Shown here in pieces: positions 6,417-33,546 of a stretch of DNA of 42,214 bases (position 1 is its first letter; each line of letters opens with the position of its first letter). The position numbers and the translations under genes are program-made. Location of the stretch: the NCBI GenBank assembly GCA_028275505.1, contig JAPWUP010000012.1, forward strand, positions 1 through 42,214, read 5' to 3'. The stretch comes from Bryobacteraceae bacterium. Lineage in GTDB: Bacteria; Acidobacteriota; Terriglobia; Bryobacterales; Bryobacteraceae. Below the pieces are notes generated by a model. It was not told the origin of the DNA. It worked only from the letters and a program-made list of their open reading frames with translations, and did no database searches.

Positions 6417-6980
6417 GGCCCGTTTCCTACCCCAGCTTATCACTGCTGCGCACGCAGGACGTGTGCGTGGCCGGGTCTCAAGGTCGTCCCTCGGGCGCTG
6501 CCCGGAAACCGGCCCCGTGGCGGGCGCTCACCGCACCTTGCGCAGTCGGGAGCCACCAGATCCGAAGGCTTTGGGAGCGGGCGCTCTGGCGCGGGCAAGT
6601 GGGAATCGGAGGGAGCCGTGCCCATTCACCGCTTGTCAACGCCAATCAGCCGCAGGACAGCATACAACCGCGTATAGAAAGCGGAGGCGCTAATTCCGCG
6701 TCAGGAAGTGAAGCGTGGCAAAGGTGATCGAGTTAGCAACGGCGCCGCCGTTGCGCCGCAAGCCGCCGGCGCTTCCGGTTCCGCCCGTGTTACAAGAAGT
6801 GCCGGAGGCGCAGGGGGGCCGAAACCGTACCGCTGCCTATAGTCCTACTTTGCTGAAAGCCGCAACATACGCGGTTACCGATAACGCGCTGAGCCGCTTC
6901 GTTTTCCCTTTAAAACTCGAACAGATACTCGGGCGGCGACGATTCTCGCTTGTTACTTGCCGGTAAACTGGAGCCGGACT
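6417..6980. other. Intergenic region, left flank of the putative mobile element
   Basis: No confident gene. A GTG-started frame at 6715-6966 (83 codons, proline-rich start, weak AGGAAG upstream) lies in a suitable place before the HTH gene, but I recognise nothing in it and it may be chance. Two dyads stand out: GCAACGGCG-C-CGCCGTTGC at 6736-6754, and CGCGGTTA-CCGA-TAACGCG at about 6870-6888. Either could be an operator or origin-proximal site. No integrase, transposase or copy of the tRNA-Lys 3' end was seen here. Confidence 0.4.
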
Positions 6981-7223
6981 ATGACAACACGAGAAAGCGG
7001 AATCCGTTGGGTAAAAGATACGGAAATGGCGCGGCTGATCGGTATATCGGCGGGTGCGCTGCGAAACTGGCGGGTGGAGGACGTTCGAGCCGGAAGGGTC
7101 TGGCCGAAGCCTGGCCATGGCGGCCTCTACTGGAGGAAATTCGGCCATTCGGTTCGGTACCTTGTCACGCCCGAGATTCTTGGCGCGCCGGCGGGGGCTG
7201 AGTATGGCGCCGAGCGTGGCTGA
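6981..7223 (+). CDS. Small helix-turn-helix (MerR/AlpA-like) DNA-binding protein
   Basis: 80 residues, ATG at 6981 with GGAG seven bases upstream. The segment WVKDTEMARLIGISAGALRN gives a helix-turn-helix of the excisionase/MerR type (residues 10-29), followed by WRVEDVRAGRVWPKPGHGGL and a wing-like FGHSVRYLVTPEIL. Proteins of this kind act as excisionases or transcriptional regulators of integrated elements and often sit just upstream of the replication gene. The 3' end overlaps the start of the primase-polymerase gene by 20 bases, which suggests translational coupling. The exact role, recombination directionality or transcription control, cannot be decided from sequence. Confidence 0.7.
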   Translation: MTTRESGIRWVKDTEMARLIGISAGALRNWRVEDVRAGRVWPKPGHGGLYWRKFGHSVRYLVTPEILGAPAGAEYGAERG

Positions 7224-9486
7224 GGCGGCCGCCGAGTACGCCCGGCGCGGCTTCGCTCCTATACCCGTGCCCCATCGCGAGAAGCGGCCGGTGCTGCCGG
7301 AGTGGCAAAAGCTGCGCCTGACGCTGGCGGACATACCGCAGTACTTCAACGGCCGGGGCCAGAATGTCGGCCTGCTTCTCGGTGTGGGCGGCTTGACCGA
7401 CGTGGACCTGGACGCCTCGGAAGCCGCCGCGGCCGCACGCGAACTGCTGCCGGACACCGCCTTCCGGTACGGCCGGCAATCCAAGCCTGGCTCGCATGCC
7501 ATGTATGTGTGCGAGCCGACGCCGACAACGCGGCAGTACAAGTGCCCGCTGACCGGCGCAAGCCTGGCGGAACTGCGCGGCTTGTCGAGGCACGGCGAGA
7601 CCGGCGCGCAAACGATCGTGCCTCCCAGTACTCACCCGAGCGGCGAGCTGGTGCGGTTCGAGCCGGGTTGCCGGCCCGAGCCTGCGCGCGTTTCTGCCGC
7701 CGAGCTGGAGCGTGCGGTTTCGCGCGTGGCCGCCGCGGCGCTGCTGGCGCGGCACTTTCCCGGCGAGGGCAGTCGCAACGAGGCGTTCCTGGCGCTGGCT
7801 GGCCTGCTGGCACGCGCTGGCTGGAGCCAGGCAGAGACAACGCAGTTCGTGCGCGCCATCTATCGCTGCCTGTGGGGCGCAGCCGCCGACTTGCGCCAGG
7901 CCGAGGCCGAGGTGGCGCACACCTTCGAGCGCTTCCGCGAGGACGGGGAGCTAACCGGATACCCGACGCTGGCCGAGCTGATCCACGAGAAGGTGCTCAA
8001 GACCGCGCTACGCTGGCTCGGCATGGAGACCGGCGCTCCGCGGGCAGCGGACGGGCGCAAGCTTACGCAGACCGAACCCTCAAACGATTCCAGCCTGGCC
8101 GATCCTGAGGATCGCTTTGTCCGGCTGCCATTGACCGACTCAGGCAATGGTGAGCGCCTCGTCCTGCGCCACGGGAAAGACCTGCGTTACTGTCACCCAC
8201 AAAAGACCTGGTGGATCTGGAGCGGCCGGCGCTGGGAACCGGATCGAACAGGCCGCGTCATGGAGCTGGCCAAAGCCGTTGCCAGGGAGTTGTATCAAGC
8301 TGCCTGGAGTTTGCCGGATGCGGAACGCAGGAAGCAGACCGCGTGGTGGGCGATCCGGTCCGAGAGTACCGACAGGAAGCGGGCGGCGTTGGTATCGGCT
8401 CAATCGGAGCCGGGTATTCCGATTTTGCCGGAGCAATTTGACGCCGACCCCTGGACATTGAACTGTCTGAATGGCACGATTGATCTGCGCACCGGAAACC
8501 TTCGCCCGCACCGTCGAGAAGACTACTGCACGCGCATGGCGCCCGTGCGGTATGACCCTGCCGCCCGCAGCGAGCTGTGGGAACGGTTCTTGGAAGAAGC
8601 CTGTGGCGGCGATCGCCAACTGATCGAGTTTCTCCAACGAGCCGTAGGCTACAGCCTGACCGGTTCCACCGCGGAAGAAAAGCTTTTCTTTGTGCATGGC
8701 CCTGCGGCCTCCGGAAAGTCCACTTTTCTGGAAGCGATTCGATCGGTGCTTGGCGATTATGCCAGGACGGCCGACTTCGAGAGCTTTATTCAAAGGCTTG
8801 ACGCCGGCGGAATTCGTAACGATATCGCCGAGCTTGCCGGCCGCCGCTTCGTGGTGGGCATGGAGGTGGACGAGGGCCGCCGGCTGGCCGAGGCTCTGGT
8901 GAAGCTGCTTACGGGCGGAGACACCGTGCGGGCTCGCTTCCTCTACCAGGAAGCCTTCGAATTCGTACCGCAATTCAAGCTGTGGTTAGCCGCCAACCAT
9001 GCCCCGCGTGTGCGCCACGACGATTCGGCTCTGTGGCGACGCATCCTGCGCGTACCGTTCGAGCATGTGATCCCGCCCGATCGCCGCGATCCTTCGGTCA
9101 AAGCGCGGCTGAAGGACGTCGAAGAATCCGGCCCGGCGATTCTGGCCTGGGCGGTCGAAGGTTGTCTTCGCTGGCAGCAAGACGGTCTTGCTGTGCCTGA
9201 CGTGGTGCAGGAGGCCACCCGGCAGTACCAGGAAGACATGGACCCGCTGCGCGATTTTATCGCCGATTGTTGCGTCCTGGCTCCCAACGCCTGGACGCCC
9301 GCGGCCAAATTGCGTGAAGCGTACGAGACCTACTGCCGCGAGAACGGCGAGAAGCGGCTGATCCATGCCAGGGAGTTCGCGGCGGGCCTTCGGGCCCGAG
9401 GCTGCGAGCCGGACAGGATAGCAAAGGGAGTAAGAGGGTGGCGCGGAATCGGTTTGCTTGCCTACGAAGAGCAACGGCTTGGGTGA
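7204..9486 (+). CDS. Bifunctional primase-polymerase / P4-type SF3 helicase replication protein
   Basis: 760 residues from the ATG at 7204; a longer frame extends upstream but is covered by the HTH gene. The N-terminal archaeo-eukaryotic primase-polymerase domain (about 1-155) opens with AAEYARRGFAPIPVPHREKR and carries the metal-binding DVDLD (Asp66, Asp68, Asp70), the GSH motif (His98) and QTIVPPSTHPSGE. The C-terminal half is a phage/plasmid primase (P4 family) superfamily 3 helicase: Walker A GPAASGKST at 499-507, a Walker B-like segment ending in Asp-Glu at 556-557, WLAANHAPRVRHDD with the sensor Asn, and ALWRRILRVPF. Such proteins start replication of satellites like P4 by binding origin iterons, unwinding DNA and making primers. 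The stop codon lies inside the first repeat of the iteron array that follows. Confidence 0.9.
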   Translation: MAPSVAEAAAEYARRGFAPIPVPHREKRPVLPEWQKLRLTLADIPQYFNGRGQNVGLLLGVGGLTDVDLDASEAAAAARELLPDTAFRYGRQSKPGSHAMYVCEPTPTTRQYKCPLTGASLAELRGLSRHGETGAQTIVPPSTHPSGELVRFEPGCRPEPARVSAAELERAVSRVAAAALLARHFPGEGSRNEAFLALAGLLARAGWSQAETTQFVRAIYRCLWGAAADLRQAEAEVAHTFERFREDGELTGYPTLAELIHEKVLKTALRWLGMETGAPRAADGRKLTQTEPSNDSSLADPEDRFVRLPLTDSGNGERLVLRHGKDLRYCHPQKTWWIWSGRRWEPDRTGRVMELAKAVARELYQAAWSLPDAERRKQTAWWAIRSESTDRKRAALVSAQSEPGIPILPEQFDADPWTLNCLNGTIDLRTGNLRPHRREDYCTRMAPVRYDPAARSELWERFLEEACGGDRQLIEFLQRAVGYSLTGSTAEEKLFFVHGPAASGKSTFLEAIRSVLGDYARTADFESFIQRLDAGGIRNDIAELAGRRFVVGMEVDEGRRLAEALVKLLTGGDTVRARFLYQEAFEFVPQFKLWLAANHAPRVRHDDSALWRRILRVPFEHVIPPDRRDPSVKARLKDVEESGPAILAWAVEGCLRWQQDGLAVPDVVQEATRQYQEDMDPLRDFIADCCVLAPNAWTPAAKLREAYETYCRENGEKRLIHAREFAAGLRARGCEPDRIAKGVRGWRGIGLLAYEEQRLG

Positions 9487-9689
9487 CACAGGTGACGGAG
9501 GTGACGTCACTTCCGGAAAAGTCCTTACGCGAGGCTTTCACTATGCAAAAGTTCCGGAAATTGACGTCACCCGCGTCACCCAAGTCACCCGCAACCTTGC
9601 AAGGGTTTGACGAAGAAAGACTTGTGAGTCGAGTGTAGGGTGACACCACCGCCAAAACCGGCGTCACCCATGCGTCACCTGGTGTCACC
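9482..9689. repeat. GGTGAC iteron array, candidate replication origin
   Basis: Ten copies of GGTGAC or its complement lie within 208 bases. Three tandem direct copies at exact 9-bp spacing start at 9482, 9491 and 9500; three in the opposite orientation, again at 9-bp spacing, start at 9566, 9575 and 9584. The two sets face each other across a centre at about 9535 and each is flanked inside by the palindrome TTCCGGAA (9511-9518 and 9552-9559), so the whole is a large, near-perfect dyad. Four more copies follow at 9639, 9663, 9674 and 9684 with looser spacing. P4-type replication proteins bind short iterons at their origin, so this is the best candidate for the element's origin. Confidence 0.6.
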
Positions 9690-10052
9690 CGCCGGATGAT
9701 GCGGCTTCCGCAAGGCTGATTTCACCCGCGCTCGCCGACTCGAGAAACCGACAGGTCTACCTGGCCAGGCTGGCGACGGCCGCGCATGGGGATCAGGGGC
9801 CGCTTTAGAGGGGCGGGAACGCGGCTTGCTTGGGGGCCGGGCTGCGGCCCCAGAGGCCCCGAGGCCTGGCTAAGGGGCGTTCAGGGGATAAGGGCCGAAC
9901 GGCAACGGCGGCTCGTCACGTGACCCTCCCTGTATGCTTCGCGCGGAAAGTAGGTCGGTTAGGTCGGCTGGAATTCCGAAGAAGTTCCCTAATCGGTTCC
10001 CTCGTGGGTTTTTTCGTCTCTTGCCGTGGCCGGTAGGTGGTTTCCTTTTCAA
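9690..10052. other. Non-coding segment between iteron array and tRNA-Lys
   Basis: No supported gene. It holds the palindrome GTCACGTGAC at 9915-9924, a tandem 9-bp repeat TAGGTCGGT/TAGGTCGGC at 9951-9968, and a repeat of GTTCCCT at 9984 and 9996. A T-run after CGTGGG near 10009 has only a weak stem before it, so I do not call a terminator. This segment is where an attachment site would be expected, directly beyond the tRNA 3' end. Confidence 0.4.
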
Positions 10053-10128
<76 letters not shown>

Positions 10129-23622: not shown

Positions 23623-24528
23623 ATGGAGCTGACCCGGCGTGATCTCCTGGTTTCGGCAGCCGGAAGTCTGGCGGCGCAGGTTCCTGCGACCGCGGCTCCG
23701 GCTCGCATCCGTCTGGCCGTTTCCACGTACTCGTACTGGCATTTCCGCGGCGAACGCTACCCGATCGAAAAAGTGATCGAGGACGCGGCGCGCATCGGTT
23801 TCGACGGCGTGGAAATCCTGCACCGGCAGATGCGCGATGAATCGCCCGCGTACGTCAACGAGATCAAGCGCCTGGCGTTTCGCAACTCGCTGGCGCTGGT
23901 CATGCTTTCCATCCACCAGAATTTCGTCTCGCCAAGCGAGGAAGAGCGCCGCAAGGCGATCCGGCATACCGAACACTGCATCGAGCTGGCGGCACGACTC
24001 GGCATCCCTTGCATCCGGATCAACTCCGGCCGCTGGGGCACCATCAAATCCTTCGACGAGCTCATGAAGGTGCGCGGCATCGAGCCGCCTCTGCCCGGCT
24101 ACACGGACGAGGACGCGTTCAAGTGGTGCATCGAGTGCATCGAGGCGTGCTTGCCCGCTGCGGAGAAGGCCGGCGTGATGCTGGCACTGGAAAACCACTG
24201 GGGCCTGACCACGCAGCCGGAAAACCTCCTGCGCATCTATCGTTCGATTCGCTCGCCGTGGTTCGGCATCAACCTGGACACCGGCAACTTCCCGGACGAT
24301 CCCTACGCCGGAATCGAGAAGCTGGCCCCCCACGCCATCATCGTGCAGGCCAAGACTTATCACGGCGGAGGCGAGTGGTACACGCTGGATCTGGACTACA
24401 AGCGCATCGCCGCCATTCTGCGCAAGGCCGGCTATTCAGGCTGGGTGTCGCTCGAGATGGAGGGCAAAGAACCAGCCGCGACGGCAGTGCCCAAAAGTTA
24501 CCGGATCCTCAAGGAAGCCTTCGGCTAA
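23623..24528 (+). CDS. Tat-exported sugar phosphate isomerase/epimerase (TIM barrel)
   Basis: 301 residues from the ATG at 23623, chosen because it begins [18 protein letters not shown], a twin-arginine signal; the frame extends upstream but without a signal. The xylose-isomerase-like/AP-endonuclease-2 barrel is shown by [56 protein letters not shown] and a final [12 protein letters not shown]. Conserved Glu, Asp and His residues in these segments would bind the divalent metal and sugar. Family members interconvert ketose and aldose or act on inositol or keto-sugars; the actual substrate is unknown. No Shine-Dalgarno is seen; TATCTT at 23611-23616 could allow a nearly leaderless mRNA. Its stop overlaps the diol dehydratase small-subunit stop (CTAA). 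Confidence 0.85.
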
Positions 24529-24932
24529 TCCGGATTGGCGCGGCTCGCCGGCGCCGCTTCGGCGGCTTCGCGGATCAGGGCGGCGGTTCGCAAAGCGCCG
24601 TAATCACGTTCGAGCCTCGCCGCCAGTTGCTCGAGCTGGTCGCGCGTCGCTCGCCCCGGGCGCAGCGCTTCGTAAATTTCCAGGATCTCCTCTTCGGGAA
24701 CCTGGGTGAGCTCGGCGGCGCGTTCGAGATTCTCGGCCAGTTGCCGTCGCCCTGCGGCGCGCGCGATCTCGGCTTGCATGCGCAGGGCTTCCGCGGTCAC
24801 GCGCAGGTCCTCCATGCCGGCGCGGCCTTCCAGCAAGGCCTCCAGCGTCAGATCCTGGTAGCGCAGCCCGGATGGCGTCCGCAGCCGATCGGGGTGATTC
24901 TCCGACAGCGGATAGGACAACGGCTCACTCAT
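24525..24932 (-). CDS. pduE: B12-dependent diol dehydratase small (gamma) subunit
   Basis: 135 residues. The match to the Klebsiella/Salmonella gamma subunit runs along the whole length: [76 protein letters not shown] and [15 protein letters not shown]. It is nearly 40 residues shorter than the enteric subunit (about 173): it starts directly at the conserved core and lacks the N-terminal extension that in enterics helps direct the enzyme into the propanediol microcompartment. Its ATG lies within the last codons of the large-subunit gene (8-base overlap), so the subunits are made in fixed proportion. Confidence 0.93.
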
Positions 24933-27144
24933 CCCAGATCACCTCCTCAGGGTCGCGCCCGGCCTCCACCCGTTCGATCTCGCGCCGGTGCAGGATCGTC
25001 GTGTGCACGATATATTTCAAGCGCGCCATGTTGTCAATGACGACCGGCGCCGGGCGGGTCGGCTCACCTTTCGCGTAGCGAGCTGCATTGCGGCCGATCG
25101 CGCGATAGCTTTCCAGCGTCAGGTTCGGCGCCTGCGGGAAGAGTTCGAGATTGTTCAGCGGCGGCAGGCCGCGGCGGTGAATCACTGTGGTCCCCTTGGA
25201 TTGAATGCCGATGGCGATCCCGGAGCCGCTCAACTGCGAGCCCGTGTAGCCGATGGCGCCCAGATCGGCGCTGTGATAGACCTTGACGACGCGCGCCGTC
25301 AATCCCTCATCGCGGATGCCCTGGACGAGCGCAGCGAGCACTTCCCGGTGCGGCAAGCCTGTTAGCGTCGCATCCAAGGCCGAGCCGAATGCGGGACCTA
25401 CCGCGATCACCACCTCGCGCGGATCTTCGCCGCGACGTGCGGGACGCGCCGGGCGCAGCCAAGGCTGTCCGGTCGCCGGCCGCCCAATGCTTCGCGGATC
25501 CCGTGCCCAGGGCAGATCGCAGATCTCGCGCAAACGCTCCGGATCGAGCCGGTAGCCTGTCCCCGGACCGCGGTAATCGTTGGGATCGTTGATGGCGCTG
25601 ATGACCCGCGGTCCCGGCAATAGCATGGCCGAGGTTTGCAGGTAATCGCCGGAGACGCGGAGTTTTTGTACGGCCAGAATTTTCTCGGCGATGTCGCGGA
25701 AGCCGCGACGCGCCAGCGCGCGGATCACGTCCGCCCCGTTGCGCCCCTCGCGCAGGAAGCGTTCCGCGGCTGCGAGGTCGGCCACCACGTCGCGATCCGG
25801 CATATCATCGCTCGAGCGTGCGTAGACGGCGGCTTCGACCTCTTCGTCGCGAATGGGCGGCAGGCCCAGTTCCTCAAAAACGGCTTGCAGCGCCTGCGCC
25901 GCGCGACGGCGGACAGCGAGCAGTTCCTCCTCGGGCACGGGACGCAGGCCGCCGTCCACCAGCATGTCGCGCTGGATCACGTTGTAGTCGTCCAGATCCT
26001 CGCCGTCGAAGTTGCCGCCGCCGAAAAGATTGTCCTCGCGCGGCATCACGCTGTAGCCGGAGAAAATGAAGTCCGTGCCCGGCAGCAGTTGCAGCATGAG
26101 CTTGGCGGTCTTGCGGATGTCGGAATGCGACGCCATGGCGTCGTTACCGGAGGCCACTTCCAGATCGAGCATCGCTGCCAGCAGATTTTCCGCCAGCACC
26201 GCGCGCACGCCGCCGGGCAGTGACTCGGGCAGCGCGATGCAACTGATCGAGCCGTTCTGCACGCCTTGCGAACCCGCGCCCTTGACGATCAGCAGGCAAC
26301 GCGCCTCCAGGTAAATCATGGACTTGCCCCCGGCATGGCCCATGAGCGCTTCCGAGCCGGTGCCGGAGGTGAATCGCACCTTGATGCCGCGGGAGGCGTA
26401 GGCCGAGGCCAGGAACGCTTTGGACCACGGCGTGTCGTCGCCATCGCGAAACGCGCGCTCATCGCCGTAGACCGACAGCGTCTCGGCGTAGGTGGTCAGG
26501 CCCAGCAACGCCAGCCGCAATCCCAGAGCCTCTTCCACCGCACACTGCGTGAGCGCGGTTCCGCGGCCCGTCTGCGAACCCACGAGTACGGCCAGCGCAT
26601 TCAGCGGGGCGTAGCGCGAGACGCCCACCGTAGTCTCGAGTTCCGCAAAGCCGCGCTCGGCTGCCTCGGCGGCGTCGGCGGCCAGCAACGCCGGGCTTTC
26701 CTTGCGGTTGGTGACGTGCGCCTGGTTGGCGGGCGTGCGCCGGGCGCGCATCCTGGCCAGCGCGATCATCATCTCCAGCACGTTCAGCTCGGCTACGACC
26801 TGCATCAATCGCGCCGGCGTCAAGCCTCCGCACAGCCGCACCAGCCTGGCTCGGGGCACGTTGATATCGGTCAGCATGCGCGCCAGCTCGCGGGGCTCGA
26901 AAGCCATGGCTTCGGGCGCGGCCTCGCAGTCAATGGAGTGGCGGGCGATGAAGCGGTCCAGCGCATCGAATTCGCTTTCGCACTTGCCGTCCAGTTCGAC
27001 GATGCGGCCGTTTTCGATCCGCAGGCTGGCCGGGGGATCGTACGGGCTGTTGAACAGAACGAGGCCCGCCTCGGGCCACGGGTGGATGAACGTATCCTTG
27101 TGGATGGGGCGGCTGGCGCGCGCCAGTGAGCGTTTGGAAGTCAT
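24925..27144 (-). CDS. pduCD: B12-dependent diol/glycerol dehydratase, fused large and medium subunits
   Basis: 739 residues from the Met at 27144. Residues 1 to about 555 are the large (alpha) subunit and about 575-739 the medium (beta) subunit, joined by a Pro/Arg-rich linker (about 555-575). The enzyme converts 1,2-diols or glycerol to aldehydes using the adenosylcobalamin radical. Catalytic and metal-site residues fall at the same numbers as in the Klebsiella alpha subunit: His143 (QAHVTN), Glu170, Glu221, Gln296, Asp335 and Ser362. The beta part has EVVIAVGPAFGSALDATLTG, GSGIAIGIQSKGTTVIHRRG and LPPLNNLELFPQAPNLTLES. Position 336 is Ala instead of the Gln of the enteric enzyme, while Ser301 is kept. 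No microcompartment shell, reactivase or aldehyde dehydrogenase gene is nearby. Fused alpha-beta forms are, I believe, known from some actinobacteria. Confidence 0.93.
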   Translation of the reverse strand: MTSKRSLARASRPIHKDTFIHPWPEAGLVLFNSPYDPPASLRIENGRIVELDGKCESEFDALDRFIARHSIDCEAAPEAMAFEPRELARMLTDINVPRARLVRLCGGLTPARLMQVVAELNVLEMMIALARMRARRTPANQAHVTNRKESPALLAADAAEAAERGFAELETTVGVSRYAPLNALAVLVGSQTGRGTALTQCAVEEALGLRLALLGLTTYAETLSVYGDERAFRDGDDTPWSKAFLASAYASRGIKVRFTSGTGSEALMGHAGGKSMIYLEARCLLIVKGAGSQGVQNGSISCIALPESLPGGVRAVLAENLLAAMLDLEVASGNDAMASHSDIRKTAKLMLQLLPGTDFIFSGYSVMPREDNLFGGGNFDGEDLDDYNVIQRDMLVDGGLRPVPEEELLAVRRRAAQALQAVFEELGLPPIRDEEVEAAVYARSSDDMPDRDVVADLAAAERFLREGRNGADVIRALARRGFRDIAEKILAVQKLRVSGDYLQTSAMLLPGPRVISAINDPNDYRGPGTGYRLDPERLREICDLPWARDPRSIGRPATGQPWLRPARPARRGEDPREVVIAVGPAFGSALDATLTGLPHREVLAALVQGIRDEGLTARVVKVYHSADLGAIGYTGSQLSGSGIAIGIQSKGTTVIHRRGLPPLNNLELFPQAPNLTLESYRAIGRNAARYAKGEPTRPAPVVIDNMARLKYIVHTTILHRREIERVEAGRDPEEVIWDE

Positions 27145-27162
27145 AGCCGGCCGGGCTGCGCT

Positions 27163-27180
27163 TCCGGCGGAAACGCCGGA
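27163..27180. promoter_or_regulatory. Hairpin in the leader of the diol dehydratase operon
   Basis: TCCGGCG and CGCCGGA form a perfect 7-bp stem with a four-base loop, ending 19 bases upstream of the ATG at 27144. On the minus strand TATCAT near 27189 is a possible -10. The hairpin would lie in the leader just above the translation start. No B12-box (cobalamin riboswitch) sequence is seen. Confidence 0.4.
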
Positions 27181-27261
27181 CCTATTCGAATGATAACGGT
27201 TACCGCGAGGCACGTTGTCGGCGGAGAGCCGCGGCCGCGCCCAAAAGGAGAACAGCCTTGG

Positions 27262-28653
27262 TCAAGGGCCGGCTGCCAGCCGCGCGGCCTGGAGTTGCCC
27301 CAAGGTCAGATCGAGCGTCAGCTCGGCGATGGCGACCGACCGCTGCGCCTGGGAGAGCAGCGACTGGCTGGTCAGCAACGCCGACTCGGCCTCCAAAACA
27401 AAGTTGATGACGCTGCGCCCGGCCTCGAACTTGAGACGCTCGTCGTGCAGCACCCGCTCGCTCTCCGCCACCGAGTCCTTCAATGCCCGGACGCGGCTCT
27501 GCGCGCTCTCCAGATCGGCCAGGGCTACGCGGACTTCCCGGGCGATCCGCAACGCCAACTGGCGCCGCGCAAGCCGAAGCTGCTCCAGTTTCGCCGCTGC
27601 CTCCTGTTCCTGACCCTTCCTTCGGCCTCCGTCAAAGACGGGAACTGAGACATGCACCCCAAGGACCAAATCGGTTGCAGCATTGCCGGGCGATGGCGCA
27701 TGAATCACCGCCGAGGGCAGCATCCCCGCGATGAGCTGGGGGAAGCCCACCGGCGTATTGGACCCGTACTGAATCGCCGCCGCCCGCAGATCGATGCGCG
27801 GCCAAGCCGATTTGCGCACTGCCGCCAGGCCAAGCTCCGCAGCGCGAAGCTCGTGATCCACCGAGCGAATCTCCGGGCGGGAGGAGATCGCGCTGGCCAG
27901 CAGCGTGGCCTCACCTGGCTTGGGCTCGGATGGCGGAGAAGCTGCGGGGCTGTAGCGCAACGCAGGAAGATCGCCTTCGTAGCCCATGACGGCAGCCAAG
28001 GCGCTCAGGGACGAGCGCTGCGCCGATTTCAGCGTAGCCAAATCGCTTTCCATCTGCGCCAGTCGCGTGCGGACCTTCAGTGCGTCCACCGGCACGGCGC
28101 GCCCTGCCGCGACCAGTTGGTTCGTACGGTCCAGCAGCGCTTGCAGGCTTCGGATGCGCGCTTCCGTTGCCCGGATCAGGTCCGTATAGGTCAGGCAGAG
28201 CAGGAACAGGCGGGCGGTCTCGAAAATAACCTCCTGTTGCTTGCGGTCGGCCGCAAAGCTGGCGGCCAGGACACGCTCGCGCGCGGCGGCAATCTCCATC
28301 TCCGTTTTGTGGAAGTCCCAGGCCAGGAACTTGAGTTCGGCGGCAGCCGAGTACAGTGTGGGGTCGAACCGTAGCAGCGCCGGTGGAGTCCCCGCAGGAT
28401 AGCCATGCTCGAAGCGCCACCGCGTCGCGTCCGCGGCCAGGTCCAACTGGGGCATCCGCGATGAGCGAGCCGCGGTGAGAAGACCTTGCCGACGGGTCAC
28501 CTCCACGCGGTCGGACCTCAACTCCGGGGAATGTTCGAGGGCGTACTTGACGGCATCCTGGAGCGTCAGCTCGCCGCTGGCCGGCGCCTCGGACGCAGCG
28601 CCCACGAAAACGCCAATCGTCAATGCTGCCGCAAACCTGAGCAGGGCGCTCAT
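27262..28653 (-). CDS. TolC-family outer-membrane efflux channel
   Basis: 463 residues with N-terminal signal (LLRFAAALTIGVFVGAASEA). It shows the TolC two-repeat pattern: GELTLQDAVKYALEHSPELR at the start, long helices such as KVRTRLAQMESDLATLKSAQ, and the second repeat with LLASAISSRPEIRSVDHELR and GVHVSVPVFDGGRRKGQEQE. Three copies would form the channel spanning the outer membrane and periplasm. The ATG overlaps the stop of the RND pump gene (ATGA), making it the last gene of the regulator-adaptor-pump-channel operon. Confidence 0.93.
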   Translation of the reverse strand: MSALLRFAAALTIGVFVGAASEAPASGELTLQDAVKYALEHSPELRSDRVEVTRRQGLLTAARSSRMPQLDLAADATRWRFEHGYPAGTPPALLRFDPTLYSAAAELKFLAWDFHKTEMEIAAARERVLAASFAADRKQQEVIFETARLFLLCLTYTDLIRATEARIRSLQALLDRTNQLVAAGRAVPVDALKVRTRLAQMESDLATLKSAQRSSLSALAAVMGYEGDLPALRYSPAASPPSEPKPGEATLLASAISSRPEIRSVDHELRAAELGLAAVRKSAWPRIDLRAAAIQYGSNTPVGFPQLIAGMLPSAVIHAPSPGNAATDLVLGVHVSVPVFDGGRRKGQEQEAAAKLEQLRLARRQLALRIAREVRVALADLESAQSRVRALKDSVAESERVLHDERLKFEAGRSVINFVLEAESALLTSQSLLSQAQRSVAIAELTLDLTLGQLQAARLAAGP

Positions 28654-31600
28654 GCTTCAGCCTCCTGAGGGTGGGTGGCCGCCAGCTTCTTCCGAATTTC
28701 TTCGGGCAACCCGTGGTCTGGCTTGCTGGCGTACATCAGGTTATAAGTGACCGGAATCACGAACAGGGAGAAACCGGTGGAGACGACCAGGCCGAAAATC
28801 AGCGACCACGCCATGCCTCCGAACACGGTGTCCTGCGTGACGGGCAGCGCCCCGAGCACCGCGGCGCCGGAAGTCAGCAGGATCGGGCGGAGCCGGACGG
28901 AGACGCTTTCGAGAATCGCCCGGTTCAGCGGCAAGCCACGCATCAGAGCCAGGTGGATGAAATCCACGATAATGATCGAGTTTCGCGTCACAATGCCCGC
29001 CAGCGCGATCATGCCGATGAAGGCAGGACCCGAGAAAAAGACCGGGTTCATGAGCCCGGCCACGCTGCGCTCGCCGAACTGATTCAACAGCCAGAAGCCC
29101 GGGAGCACGCCAATCACCATCAGCGGGATGGAAAGCATGATCACCAGCGGCAACTGGTACGAACCGGTCTGGTTCATCAGGATCACGTAGATGCCCGCTA
29201 ACGCAATCAACATGGCAAAAGCAAGGTCGCGGAACAGGTTCATGGTGATGTACATCTCGCCTTCGTCCCACCACCTCACGCGGATGCCTTCGGGGACCTC
29301 CCAGGCGACTCCTCCGCCCTTGCGAAACATAGTGCGGCTTGCGAGCGGCCGCGGTTTGGCCTCTCTGTCCACGAAAAGCCGATTCCCGCCTGACACTTGA
29401 TCTGCTCTCAGATCGAGTATGGTTTCCACGGGAGGCCTTCCCGCCATTTCCCCGAACACATAGACCACGCGCTCCGTCTGGCGGTGATAGATGGTCTTGT
29501 CCTCCAGTTGCGCGCGCCAGCGCCCAAGCTCGGAAATGGGAACCAGGCGTCCTCCGAGACCTTTGACATAAATGCGGGACAAGTCCGGCGCGCTGGAGCG
29601 TTCGGCCCGCGGAAACCAGAGCCCGATGCGGACCGGCAAGCGTTCATAAGGCATCTGCGCGATGCCGGCGCTTTGGCTGCCCAGGGCCAGGCCGATGGTG
29701 CGGGAGATCTCATCGGTCGAAACGCCGTTCAACGCTGCCTTCTCTTTATCCACCTCGAAGACGAGTTTGGTCTGATCCTCATCAATCGAGTCGTCCAGAT
29801 CCACGATGCCGGGCTCCCTGCTCATGCGCTCTTTGACAATGGCGGCCGCCCTCATCAGGTCCTCGTAAGAGTTGCGTGGCTCTCCGTATACGGCCGCCAC
29901 AATCGTGGACATCGCAGGCGGACCGGCGGGCAGTTCGACAATTTTCAACTTGACTCCATTGCGCCTGGCAAGCGCCGTCAGGTCGGCCCGCAGCCGCAGC
30001 GCCACGGAATGGCTCGAGTGGACTCGCTGCGTCTTGTGGATCAGGTTGACGCGGATGTCGGCGCGGTTCGGCGCCCGGCGCAAGAAGTACTGCCGCATCA
30101 TGCCGTTGAAATCCACCGGCGAGGCCGTTCCCACATAGGCCTCATAGTCGGTAACCTCCGGCACCGAGGCCAGATAGTGCTCGAATTCGCGCGCCACCGC
30201 ATCGGTTCGCTCCAGCGGCGTGCCCACCGGCATGTCGAGAACCAGCAACAGCTCGTCTTTGTTGTCATAGGGGAGTTGCTTCACCCTTACCTTGCGGGTC
30301 AATACCAACAGCACGCTGCCAATGAACAATGCCACTACGAAAAGGAGGAAGATGCGGCCCAGCCACCGGCGTTCCACCAGGGGCATCAGGGTACGCCGGA
30401 AAAACCGCTCGGTCAGAGACGGCCTTCCCGCGGCAGGGGCGGACATCGCGGTCCCGCCGTGGCGTTTCAGGAAATGATAGGCCAGCCACGGAGTGATGGT
30501 GAAGGAGACGGCCAGTGACATCAGCATCGTCACCGGGACGTTCACCGCCATGGGGCGCAGGTACTGACCCATCATGTCGGTGACCGAAAGCAGCGGAAGG
30601 AAAGAAAGCATCACGGCGAAGGTTGCGGCAATGAGCGGGGGACGGACCTCGTTGATGGCTTCCAGCACGATCGCCTTGGTCGCCTTGCCCCGCATCTGGA
30701 AGTGACGGTGGATGTTCTCCACGTCCACGATCGGGTCATCCACCAGCAACCCGAGAGCGATGGTGAGGGCGAACAGCGTGATGCGGTTGATCGAAAATCC
30801 CAGAAAGTAGTTCACGATCAAGGTCAAGCCGAAGACGCAGGGCACGACGATCGCCACGACCAGCGCCTGACGATAGCCCAAGCCCATCGTCAGAAGAGCC
30901 ATCACCACGGCAATGGCCACGAACAAGGCCTCTTCCAACTCCTCGACCTTCGCGTTGGCTGTGATCCCGTAATTGCGGGTGATCACCACCTCCACGTCGG
31001 AAGGCAGGACGGTTTTCTTGAGCTCTTCCATGCGCTGGATCAGATCGCGCGCGACCCACACGTTGTTGGATCCGTGCTTCTTGGCCACGGCGATGGTCAC
31101 CGCGGGCTGCGGCTCCCCGACGCCAGGCGAAGAAGAGGCGGGGCCTCCCACCAGGCTCCCGGTCGCGCCCTCCTCTTTGGGATGGCTCCACGCCTGCCCG
31201 CGGTGGAATCGGACGTAATCGAGGAACTCTCCGGGACCGTCGGTCACCTCGGCCACGTCCCGAAGATAGACGGGGCGCCCGTTCCATACGCCCACAACCA
31301 GTTCCCGCAGATCCCTCGCGTCCGCGATGAAGTCGCCGGCTTGAACCCGGACGCTGCGGTCGTCGCGGTCGAACGTCCCCGCCAGGACGCTGCTATTGGA
31401 CGCCTGGATGGCGCGGCTGATGTCAAGCGCGGAAATACCGTAGGCTGCCATGCGCGTGGCCGAAGGCCGGATCAAAAGCTCGCGCGGACGCCCGCCCACC
31501 ACGTACGCGGTCCCTGCATTGGGTACGGACTGAAGCCGCGGAACGATCTCCTCGGCCATCCGCCGAAGCGAGTAATCGTCGTGCGACCGGCTCGTCAGGG

Positions 31601-32048
31601 TGAAGGTGACCACAGGTACATCGTCTACATCCACCGGCTTCACCACCCAGCCGGCAACCCCGGGCGTGATCCGGTCCATGTTTTCGTTCAGCTTTCGAAT
31701 GAGCTTGACGTAGCTTGGCTCCAGCGGCTCGCCCACGTAAAAGCGGACCGTAACGATGCTCTGGCCGGGCATGGAACGCGAGTACACGTACTGCACGCCG
31801 GGGATCTGGAGAAGCATTTTCTCCAGCGGGGTCGAGACCAGTTGTTCGACCTCCGCGGCCGTGCGCCCGGGAAACGAGACCATTACGTTGGCCGCGGCGA
31901 CCACGATCTGTGGCTCTTCTTCCCGGGGCGTGATGAGCAGGGCGATTGCGCCCGCGGCCAGCGAGACCAGGATGAACACCAGCGACAGGTTCGACTCCAG
32001 GAACCTGCGGACAATGCGGAGGGTGAGCGTTTCATGCGAAGGATTCAT
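28650..32048 (-). CDS. RND efflux pump inner-membrane permease (AcrB/MdtB type)
   Basis: 1132 residues, longer than AcrB (about 1050), partly because of an inserted Gly/Ser/Pro-rich segment near residues 290-310 (GPASSSPGVGEP). It opens with a membrane segment (LESNLSLVFILVSLAAGAIA). The proton relay is conserved in the TM4 sequence ALGLLVDDPIVDVENIHRHF with two adjacent Asp residues. The C-terminal membrane block includes GIVTRNSIIIVDFIHLALMR and LTSGAAVLGALPVTQ. Periplasmic porter segments (PGRTAAEVEQLVSTPLEKML, VQYVYSRSMPGQSIVTVRF) are typical. It exports substrates by proton antiport as a trimer with the adaptor and TolC of the same operon. The regulator suggests metal response, but the pump does not clearly fall in the CzcA heavy-metal class, so the substrate is open. 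Confidence 0.95.
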   Translation of the reverse strand: MNPSHETLTLRIVRRFLESNLSLVFILVSLAAGAIALLITPREEEPQIVVAAANVMVSFPGRTAAEVEQLVSTPLEKMLLQIPGVQYVYSRSMPGQSIVTVRFYVGEPLEPSYVKLIRKLNENMDRITPGVAGWVVKPVDVDDVPVVTFTLTSRSHDDYSLRRMAEEIVPRLQSVPNAGTAYVVGGRPRELLIRPSATRMAAYGISALDISRAIQASNSSVLAGTFDRDDRSVRVQAGDFIADARDLRELVVGVWNGRPVYLRDVAEVTDGPGEFLDYVRFHRGQAWSHPKEEGATGSLVGGPASSSPGVGEPQPAVTIAVAKKHGSNNVWVARDLIQRMEELKKTVLPSDVEVVITRNYGITANAKVEELEEALFVAIAVVMALLTMGLGYRQALVVAIVVPCVFGLTLIVNYFLGFSINRITLFALTIALGLLVDDPIVDVENIHRHFQMRGKATKAIVLEAINEVRPPLIAATFAVMLSFLPLLSVTDMMGQYLRPMAVNVPVTMLMSLAVSFTITPWLAYHFLKRHGGTAMSAPAAGRPSLTERFFRRTLMPLVERRWLGRIFLLFVVALFIGSVLLVLTRKVRVKQLPYDNKDELLLVLDMPVGTPLERTDAVAREFEHYLASVPEVTDYEAYVGTASPVDFNGMMRQYFLRRAPNRADIRVNLIHKTQRVHSSHSVALRLRADLTALARRNGVKLKIVELPAGPPAMSTIVAAVYGEPRNSYEDLMRAAAIVKERMSREPGIVDLDDSIDEDQTKLVFEVDKEKAALNGVSTDEISRTIGLALGSQSAGIAQMPYERLPVRIGLWFPRAERSSAPDLSRIYVKGLGGRLVPISELGRWRAQLEDKTIYHRQTERVVYVFGEMAGRPPVETILDLRADQVSGGNRLFVDREAKPRPLASRTMFRKGGGVAWEVPEGIRVRWWDEGEMYITMNLFRDLAFAMLIALAGIYVILMNQTGSYQLPLVIMLSIPLMVIGVLPGFWLLNQFGERSVAGLMNPVFFSGPAFIGMIALAGIVTRNSIIIVDFIHLALMRGLPLNRAILESVSVRLRPILLTSGAAVLGALPVTQDTVFGGMAWSLIFGLVVSTGFSLFVIPVTYNLMYASKPDHGLPEEIRKKLAATHPQEAEA

Positions 32049-33208
32049 TTCGCCTGCCCCGTGGTGGTTGCTTCGGCGGTCTCGGCCACGATCACCTCGC
32101 CCGGCGCCAGCCCGCTCAGCACTTCGATTTTGTCGCCCACGGCGCGGCCCAACTGGACCGTCCGGCGTTCCACGCGCCCATCCTGAACAACGTCCACCGT
32201 GGTGAGCTGCCCCGCGCGCCTTACTGCCGGGGTGGGTATCAGCAAGACCCGTTGCGGCGCTTCGGGTATCAGCAGCCGGCCAAACATCCCGGGCACCAGA
32301 TCACGGGGATGTTCCAGTCGCACCCGGACCAGAACGGTCCGCGTCGCGGGATCCGAAGAGGGCACGATCTCGGCCACCCGCCCATGCAGCGTGCGCTTCA
32401 GGGCGTCAATGCGAACCGGATATGCCCGGCCGATGCTGATCCGGCCAAGCTGTTCTTCGGGAACACTGGCTTCCAGCCACAGCCGGTCTTGTTGGTACAT
32501 GGTCAGCAAAGGCTTGCCCGGAGCGGCCAGTTCGCCCGTTTCCGACAATTTGTCAATCACCACTCCATCGAAAGGGCTGCGGATTACCGCATAAGACAAG
32601 TTCGCTTCCGCTTCGTGCTGCGCCTGTCGCAGCCGTTCCAGGTTCGCTTGCGCGGTCTTGAGCGCCGTTTCCGTGTTCTCGAAGTCGTAGGCGCTGATCA
32701 CTCGCTGGTCGAACAGCGGCTTGTCACGCTTGTAGTTGGAAAGAGCTTGCGCGAAAGTCGCCTCGGCCGCGCGGACCGCCTCCCGCGCCTGCTCGACGCG
32801 CGCACGGAGGTCACGGTCATCGAGTTCGACCAATATCTCTCCCTTGGCGACTCGCTGGCCGGCGGAGACGCCAATGCGGACAATGGTCGCCACCACGCGT
32901 GAGGTTACGGTGGCGACATATTCAGGCCGCACCGTCCCCACGGCCTCGGTGGTAACGGGGATGGTTGTGAAGGTGACGGGTAGAGTCGGGAGGCCCTCTG
33001 CCTTCCTCTCCGGAACCGCCGCCCTGCCGGGCTGGATCCGGTTCTTTCGGAAGAAGCCGAAGACCCATAGCATCAGCAACAGGATGACCGCGATCGAAAG
33101 GCCGATACGGAGCGCCGTCGCCAGGCGATGCCGCTTGCCCGGAGTCGCGCGGGGGGCTTCTCCGCCAAGAGCGAGTTGCCCGGTACTTGCAGTTTCGTCA
33201 TTACTCAT
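32045..33208 (-). CDS. RND efflux periplasmic adaptor (membrane fusion protein)
   Basis: 387 residues. One N-terminal membrane segment (ATALRIGLSIAVILLLMLWV) anchors it in the inner membrane. The barrel-sandwich/lipoyl halves are seen in IGVSAGQRVAKGEILVELDD and SPFDGVVIDKLSETGELAAP, separated by a coiled-coil hairpin at about residues 130-205 (ARVEQAREAVRAAEATFAQA, ALKTAQANLERLRQAQHEAE). The beta-barrel domain (RLWLEASVPEEQLGRISIGR) and membrane-proximal domain (GRVERRTVQLGRAVGDKIEV) follow. It bridges pump and TolC. Both ends overlap neighbours by ATGA: the ArsR gene upstream and the pump gene downstream. Confidence 0.94.
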   Translation of the reverse strand: MSNDETASTGQLALGGEAPRATPGKRHRLATALRIGLSIAVILLLMLWVFGFFRKNRIQPGRAAVPERKAEGLPTLPVTFTTIPVTTEAVGTVRPEYVATVTSRVVATIVRIGVSAGQRVAKGEILVELDDRDLRARVEQAREAVRAAEATFAQALSNYKRDKPLFDQRVISAYDFENTETALKTAQANLERLRQAQHEAEANLSYAVIRSPFDGVVIDKLSETGELAAPGKPLLTMYQQDRLWLEASVPEEQLGRISIGRAYPVRIDALKRTLHGRVAEIVPSSDPATRTVLVRVRLEHPRDLVPGMFGRLLIPEAPQRVLLIPTPAVRRAGQLTTVDVVQDGRVERRTVQLGRAVGDKIEVLSGLAPGEVIVAETAEATTTGQAK

Positions 33209-33546
33209 ACCGTTTCTCCCTTAGCTGCGTGACACTCTGCGTCCAGGTTGCGAAGGTCGGCCTGGCCGGTGGCTTCGTGGCTCAAGATCTGCTCCAGCAG
33301 GGGCCGGATCTGAGCCAGAAGGGAGTGCTGCTCGTTGATCTCATAGTTGATCCGGAATCCTTCCCGCCACCCTTTCACCAACCCATGGCTCCGCAGGTAG
33401 GCCAGATGACGGGAGACCAAGGGTTGCGGAAGACCGAGAATTGCCGCCATCCGGCAAACGCACAACCGGGAGCGGAATAACAAGTTGAGGATCCGCAACC
33501 TCGTGGGATCTGCTAGCGCTTTGAAGAAATTGGATATGTGGGTCAT
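33205..33546 (-). CDS. ArsR/SmtB-family metalloregulator
   Basis: 113 residues, a winged-helix repressor: FFKALADPTRLRILNLLF, recognition region GLPQPLVSRHLAYLRSHGLV and wing WREGFRINYEI. RLCVCRM (Cys29, Cys31) matches the position of the ELCVCDL metal-binding motif of the ArsR alpha-3 site; a further Cys105-His106 pair near the C terminus could add ligands. The flanking charged residues of the classic motif are changed (Arg instead of Glu and Asp), so the inducing metal is uncertain; arsenite, antimonite, cadmium or zinc are possible. It is the first gene of the efflux operon, overlaps the adaptor gene and presumably represses its own operon. Confidence 0.9.
   Translation of the reverse strand: MTHISNFFKALADPTRLRILNLLFRSRLCVCRMAAILGLPQPLVSRHLAYLRSHGLVKGWREGFRINYEINEQHSLLAQIRPLLEQILSHEATGQADLRNLDAECHAAKGETV

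Follow-up and report, generated by a model that had tools for sequence, protein, structure and literature searches.

The window analyzed here, a 42,214-nucleotide stretch of contig JAPWUP010000012.1 from a Bryobacteraceae bacterium (GCA_028275505.1), carries a primase-helicase gene on its plus strand at 7204 to 9486, followed directly by an array of short repeats. Searches of Pfam, PHROG and NCBIfam indicated a PrimPol domain, D5_N, an SF3 helicase and a C-terminal winged helix in the gene product, which is 760 amino acids long when translated from the ATG at 7204 and 810 from a GTG at 7054. The Pfam matches were Prim-Pol, D5_N and DUF5906; phrog_1156 (DNA primase) was matched at an E value of 4.8e-146, and TIGR01613 (phage/plasmid primase, P4 family) at 302 bits, above the NCBIfam cut-off of 108.7. 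A small ORF at 6957 to 7223 (+), with a possible ATG at 6981, overlaps the start of the gene. Judged by eye, our guess is a helix-turn-helix protein (IGISAGALRNWR), and no match was obtained in Pfam up to an E value of 0.5, in PADLOC or in NCBIfam.

Structure prediction gave a pLDDT of 93.6 for the helicase half, which matches ASFV PrimPol, the SaPI5 primase-helicase (7ola) and mpox E5. The last 85 residues were predicted as a winged helix (pLDDT 87.5), whose top structural matches are RFX domains (Z 9.6 and 8.8). The P4 origin-binding domain 1ka8 ranked third, with a Z of 7.9 over 77 aligned residues (rmsd 3.3, 25% identity); according to the tool, a Z under 8 can reflect no more than a common arrangement. 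For this small domain, Foldseek returned no match with an E value of 0.001 or lower.

Ten inverted and direct GGTGAC sites behind the gene

When both strands were listed, ten GGTGAC/GTCACC sites were found in the 208 nt from 9482 to 9689. The left arm (9482 to 9505, +) consists of GGTGAC at 9482, 9491 and 9500, the first of which includes the TGA stop codon of the gene (9484 to 9486), and the right arm (9566 to 9589, −) consists of GTCACC at 9566, 9575 and 9584. Between them, the palindrome TTCCGGAA was read from the sequence at 9511 to 9518 and again at 9552 to 9559. Together they form a dyad with arms of 39 nt each (9481 to 9519 and 9552 to 9590), which are 77% complementary, separated by a gap of 32 nt and centered near 9535.5. 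The core between the innermost sites (9506 to 9565), whose starts are 66 bp apart, is about half AT (53%, versus 38% in the primase-helicase gene). It holds CCTTACGCGAGG, which is also present in the core of the paralogous locus L004 described below. An outer cluster (9637 to 9690) comprises GGTGAC at 9639 and GTCACC at 9663, 9674 and 9684, in which GGGTGACACC (9637 to 9646) and GGTGTCACCC (9681 to 9690) are a perfect inverted pair; additional sites outside the main arms are likewise present in L004 and L007. The sequence-only reading had described a P4-type primase-helicase before the array, ten hexamers in 208 bases, two triplets of opposite orientation at 9-bp spacing, TTCCGGAA inside each arm, a large dyad near 9535 and the stop codon of the replication gene within the first hexamer, and each of these was confirmed.

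Such a density of sites was not reproduced by shuffling. The densest 208-nt stretch of the window contains 10 sites, versus no more than 3 when the whole window was dinucleotide-shuffled 200 times; counting any hexamer, in scan steps of 26 bases, gave at most 9 in the window and 5 to 7 in 10 shuffles. Furthermore, the pattern of three GGTGAC in a row is unique to the array within the host genome (392 contigs), occurring once per strand.

Paralogous loci and surroundings

Two more helicase loci, L004 and L005, were found in the host genome. The protein of L004 is 79% identical over residues 300 to 751, and the locus has a CGTGAC array of its own; L005 is a partial match with one internal stop. 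L004 (C30 of the same genome) and L003 have the helicase half in common at 79%, and the match ends at residue 300. Their N-terminal halves seem unrelated to each other, as though a helicase and its origin travelled together as a single module.

Pfam searches of 7 small ORFs near the gene and 23 larger window ORFs besides the primase gene revealed no integrase, capsid or packaging family, several of these ORFs having no Pfam match at all. The integrase, regulator, packaging or interference genes of a PICI- or P4-type satellite are absent among the scanned ORFs. Since the element is without visible mobility genes, the window origin may be a relic.

Downstream of the array lies a tRNA-Lys (CTT) gene (10053 to 10128, −), a possible integration site. 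Its 3′ end occurs only once in the window; a 13-nt match at 8145 to 8157, considered as an att repeat, lies inside the gene and was taken as chance. The tRNA-Lys stretch was matched in 20 of the 21 genomes searched, and an empty site could not be demonstrated because the flanking PSD1 gene was unmatched at the cut-off in the two genomes of the same genus. Fragments of the tRNA-Lys 3′ end (48 to 50 nt, 90 to 92%) were noticed in the genomes of three relatives, L084 (6418 to 6465), L085 (2072 to 2121) and L091 (68 to 115), again a possible integration site; at L084, an ORF at 8230, after the fragment, resembles a phage primase by eye. Elsewhere in the window (24525 to 27213 and 27262 to 33546), genes for a diol/glycerol-type dehydratase, namely a large+medium fusion (762 aa) and a small subunit, adjoin an efflux operon (OEP, AcrB-type and HlyD-type) with an ArsR-type regulator.

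Recurrence behind related helicase genes

To be scored as an array, a stretch had to contain at least 2 + 2 sites of one 7-mer, one mismatch allowed, spaced by 7 to 12 bp and in opposite orientation, with the arms 25 to 130 bp apart; 330 nt were scanned from the point where the conserved helicase ends. By this rule, arrays lie directly behind the helicase at 69 of 92 loci, versus 6/92 in-gene and 8/88 farther-downstream control stretches, and 23 of the 92 loci have none. Arrays with at least 5 sites were found at 43/92 loci versus 0/92 and 2/88 in the respective controls, and shuffled downstream stretches gave arrays of at least 4 sites in 5.5%. Genome loci and three annotated records, which make up the first set, contributed 36/46, and the IMG/VR loci, among the matches listed, 33/46. 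The latter set was built from the best 80 of the matches listed and L006, which is present in both sets, and was reduced from 81 to 47 by dropping loci at least 80% identical to a retained one. The final scan left out L001 and L002, located where L003 is; L005 and L030, whose match was too short; and L043 and L126, with too little DNA.

An initial scan that allowed one mismatch but set no spacing was too permissive, yielding at least 4 sites in 42/48 downstream stretches and also in 24/47 gene and 28/47 far controls; with the spacing rule, the first set gave 32/48 versus 2/47 and 5/47. The rule defined on the first set was then applied to the IMG/VR set, where, among the matches listed, it gave 27/45 versus 3/46 and 4/43 in controls, and 13/45 versus 0/46 and 0/43 at 5 or more sites; the latter figures are safer because AT-rich loci add noise at 4 sites (8% in shuffles there). 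Because some arrays are read inside an ORF, the scan was later anchored at the end of the conserved helicase instead of at the stop codon; this single change came after the IMG/VR run, so the final 69/92 derives from a rule adjusted after data inspection.

Among 13 named records, six reached at least 5 sites, a score attained by 0/40 shuffles: phage AcaML1, mycobacteriophage Mdavu, Methanoculleus virus L4768 (arms 121 bp apart), satellite phage Javan365, plasmid pSINAC02 and a Bacillus glycinifermentans plasmid. Phage phi105, Listeria phage B025 and a Bordetella phage reached only 4 sites, matched by 8/40, 8/40 and 2/40 shuffles, respectively, and four records scored zero (a Thermaerobacter plasmid, pGEOTH02, pPL62-4 and a Streptomyces plasmid). 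Iteron words differ among the relatives, including CGTGAC (L008), TATGAA (L011), ATGACG (L013, L014), CTGACG (L044), GTGTAG (L026) and TGTTAC (phi105). As judged by the scan, the layout recurs behind related helicases of tailed phages, plasmids, a satellite and chromosomal loci; what was conserved behind the homologous genes is the layout rather than the GGTGAC word of the sequence-only reading.

Geometry of the arrays

In 49 strong arrays, the distance between innermost sites has a median of 66 bp (IQR 60 to 74, range 25 to 102), and repeats are mostly spaced by 9 or 10 bp (114/171), about one helical turn. The spacer was richer in AT than the gene in all 31 of 32 arrays with a valid gene value, the gene of the 32nd being interrupted by a contig end. 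An alternating pyrimidine-purine tract was seen between the arms in L013, L024, L025, L028, L032, L038, L044 to L046 and others, CG/CA-rich in many relatives and TA-rich in others such as phi105 (L033). The longest alternating run averages 11.2, versus 5.9 to 6.3 in shuffles, with p ≤ 0.05 in 16 to 18 of 32 loci and, in the viral set, 9 to 10 of 24. In hosts where AT-rich melting elements are rare, such a tract could serve this purpose. As a feature of the window the tract was rejected, the longest run there being 6 and not significant.

Iteron words and the wing of the C-terminal domain

Across the 49 arrays (1128 scored pairs), iteron distance correlated with winged-helix distance (residues 681 to 752) at a rho of 0.18 to 0.19, reached by 1 of 500 permutations, and the partial correlation given the ATPase was 0.20 (0/500 permutations). 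No correlation was found in the 49 arrays with the ATPase (−0.01), the lid (−0.02) or the N-terminal half (−0.04). These data suggest that the iterons co-diverge weakly with the C-terminal winged helix, a small effect (0.19). When columns were tested singly, p ≤ 0.01 was obtained for 8/74 in the winged helix, 7/140 in the ATPase, 6/174 in the N-terminal half and 4/45 in the lid; the enrichment in the winged helix is mild, and the two strongest columns, 513 and 545, are in the ATPase.

The wing itself appears to vary with the word, and here a set of related proteins says more than the correlation. TMKG occurs with ATGACGG in L013, L014, L038 and L127 (related proteins), TKHG with GTGACGG in L024 and L025, and SNRG with GTGTAGG in L026; among more distant proteins, TMQG occurs with ATGACGGG (L016) and TMKG with TATGAAGG (L011). 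The words are not pure in the counted stretches (6 GTGAC and 2 ATGAC in L024, 9 GTGAC and 1 ATGAC in L025, 7 ATGAC and 1 GTGAC in L038), and ATGAC words were found with other wings in L009 and L046. A prediction that TM[KQ]G goes with ATGA and TKHG with GTGAC was written down before 16 further loci were fetched, of which L188, L189, L190 and L194 are on contigs of the earlier L127 to L130. All nine new TMKG loci (L187, L191, L192, L193, L195 to L198 and L201) have ATGAC arrays, L193 with 2 GTGAC besides; because they are close relatives of one another, they count as few lineages, not nine. L203, with the wing TMHG, has ATGACGG, and L199, with TNRG, has GTGAAGG; L202 combines another wing with another word, L200 (TKTV) has no array by the rule, and no new TKHG locus was present among the loci fetched. 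We propose a candidate recognition code in which the wing TMKG would specify ATGA and TKHG would specify GTGAC. RFX proteins read DNA with their wing, and this would fit the association.

The array as a probable origin, and other readings

Taking the sequence together with analogous systems, we consider it highly probable that the primase-helicase encoded directly upstream has its cognate replication origin, or the iteron part of one, in this array. The sequence-only reading had proposed the cognate origin of a satellite-like element: an origin-type array is indeed the most likely explanation, the layout recurring at 69/92 related loci, and the satellite was not borne out, as no integrase, capsid or packaging family was present in the scanned ORFs.

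An unlikely, though not negligible, alternative is that the functional element is a stem-loop, as proposed for the archaeal plasmid pRN1, in which the repeats matter as a stem rather than as protein sites. The pRN1 element, a 21-nt stem with a 58-nt loop, is needed for replication (PMC4234260), and the window dyad folds well as a single strand (z −7.2), though any dyad does. Linkers between mirrored iterons are complementary across the arms at 86 of 125 positions summed over arrays with usable linkers, but at only 1 of 6 in the window; the iteron may extend into the linker, so the dyad might have a structural role. However, direct copies at 7 to 12 bp within an arm, mostly at the 9 to 10 bp noted above, would be superfluous for a stem, and the iterons appear to diverge along with the winged helix.

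Many replication proteins regulate their own operons, and the sites here begin within the stop codon. That the element uses the array as an operator or autoregulatory site, and not as its origin, nevertheless seems very improbable to us: the array lies behind the gene and not in front of it, the arrays of relatives lie behind helicase genes that mostly match only residues ~300 to 752 and not the N-terminal half, and the close analogues are tested origins (PMC6092414, PMC7581432).

Selection of the 9-bp repeats as protein (Val-Thr-x) can practically be dismissed, for although the frame is open across the window array (ORF 9438 to 9638, 66 aa, VTQVTEVTSLPEK), also inside the primase ORFs of L134 and L105, and over 120 nt in L004 and L023, there without Val-Thr repeats, 101 of 171 spacings are not multiples of three (7, 8, 10 and 11 bp being common), which counts against it, only 15/49 arrays have multiples of three throughout, and the frame meets stop codons in L007, L008 and L034, three of five relatives read over 120 nt each. 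Both checks that could have refuted the sequence-only reading, whether such arrays lie next to related helicases and whether they are conserved as DNA rather than as a protein frame, spoke for it; its warning that such arrays may be miscalled as coding was apt, given that those of L134 (VNLVNLVNL, then GSQGSQGSQGSQ) and L105 (VTLVTDVTL) are read within the primase ORF. We also noticed iteron arrays within the primase ORF in L094, L006 and L093, so that in all five loci the putative origin is encoded in the protein tail.

Proposed mechanism and implications

For the array as an origin, SaPI, SCCmec and P4 suggest how it might operate. The C-terminal winged-helix domain would bind the GGTGAC iterons in both arms, whose inverted orientation would set two helicase hexamers face to face across the AT-richer spacer of 60 to 66 bp. 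The SF3 helicase, driven by ATP, would then open the spacer, and the PrimPol domain of the same protein would lay down primers. The outer cluster may provide extra binding sites.

Whether a two-armed iteron origin is a general design of PrimPol/D5-type SF3 helicases in phages, plasmids, satellites and chromosomal islands we consider evenly balanced on the sequence comparisons; such a design would consist of inverted arms, spacing of 7 to 12 bp, inner sites about 66 bp apart and a word set by the wing (TM[K/Q/H]G for ATGA, TKHG for GTGAC). If so, origin specificity would be predictable from the protein sequence, and swappable. The iteron word changes fast and the geometry is stable, and these loci would therefore be natural initiator/origin pairs for the study of site choice by SF3 helicases. 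The layout also supplies a rule by which origins can be sought in many unannotated mobile elements, and a chromosomal PrimPol-helicase gene is now placed beside its likely origin.

Comparison with known systems

In PICI origins, the array is immediately 3′ of the primase/helicase gene, with two iteron sets around an AT-richer region (Fillol-Salom 2018, PMC6092414). That paper gives the iteron sequences per element, reports a test of pri-ori function for EcCICFT073 and calls the layout unique to PICIs; the hosts it deals with include Gram-positive cocci and, among Gram-negatives, E. coli. As in PICIs and SaPIs (pri-rep-ori), the window array is immediately 3′ of the gene, its first iteron holding the stop codon, and as in PICIs, 3 + 3 sites surround a core richer in AT than the gene (53% versus 38%). 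Unlike a PICI, the window shows none of the integrase, capsid or packaging families in those ORFs that were scanned.

The D5-type helicase Cch2 of SCCmec binds, through its C-terminal domain, repeats downstream of its own gene; unlike the window array, its site is described as three AAGTG iterons in direct repeat (PMC7581432). ORF904 of pRN1 combines PrimPol, an SF3 helicase and a winged helix, with an essential dyad of ~100 nt just downstream, and its authors proposed a similar structure downstream in several phages (PMC4234260). They treat this dyad as a stem-loop that carries GTG/CAC motifs and not as arms made up of iterons. No paper on the Sfi21 phage origin was found in the open-access literature.

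P4 has a primase of the same family, TIGR01613. Its crr, directly 3′ of alpha, contains GGTGAACA/TGTGAACA repeats at 9-bp spacing together with inverted copies, like the window, and the domain 1ka8 of P4 alpha may have a fold similar to that of the window winged helix (Z 7.9, possibly only a common arrangement). Unlike the window, where only one region was found and the hexamer is GGTGAC rather than GGTGAACA, P4 has a separate annotated ori region (9086 to 9809) with type 1 and type 2 repeats. Because of its PICI, SCCmec/SaPI, P4 and pRN1 counterparts, we expect that the locus works like a PICI or P4 origin. The layout is already published for PICIs; less ordinary here, as far as the open-access literature searched shows, are its breadth and the candidate recognition code.
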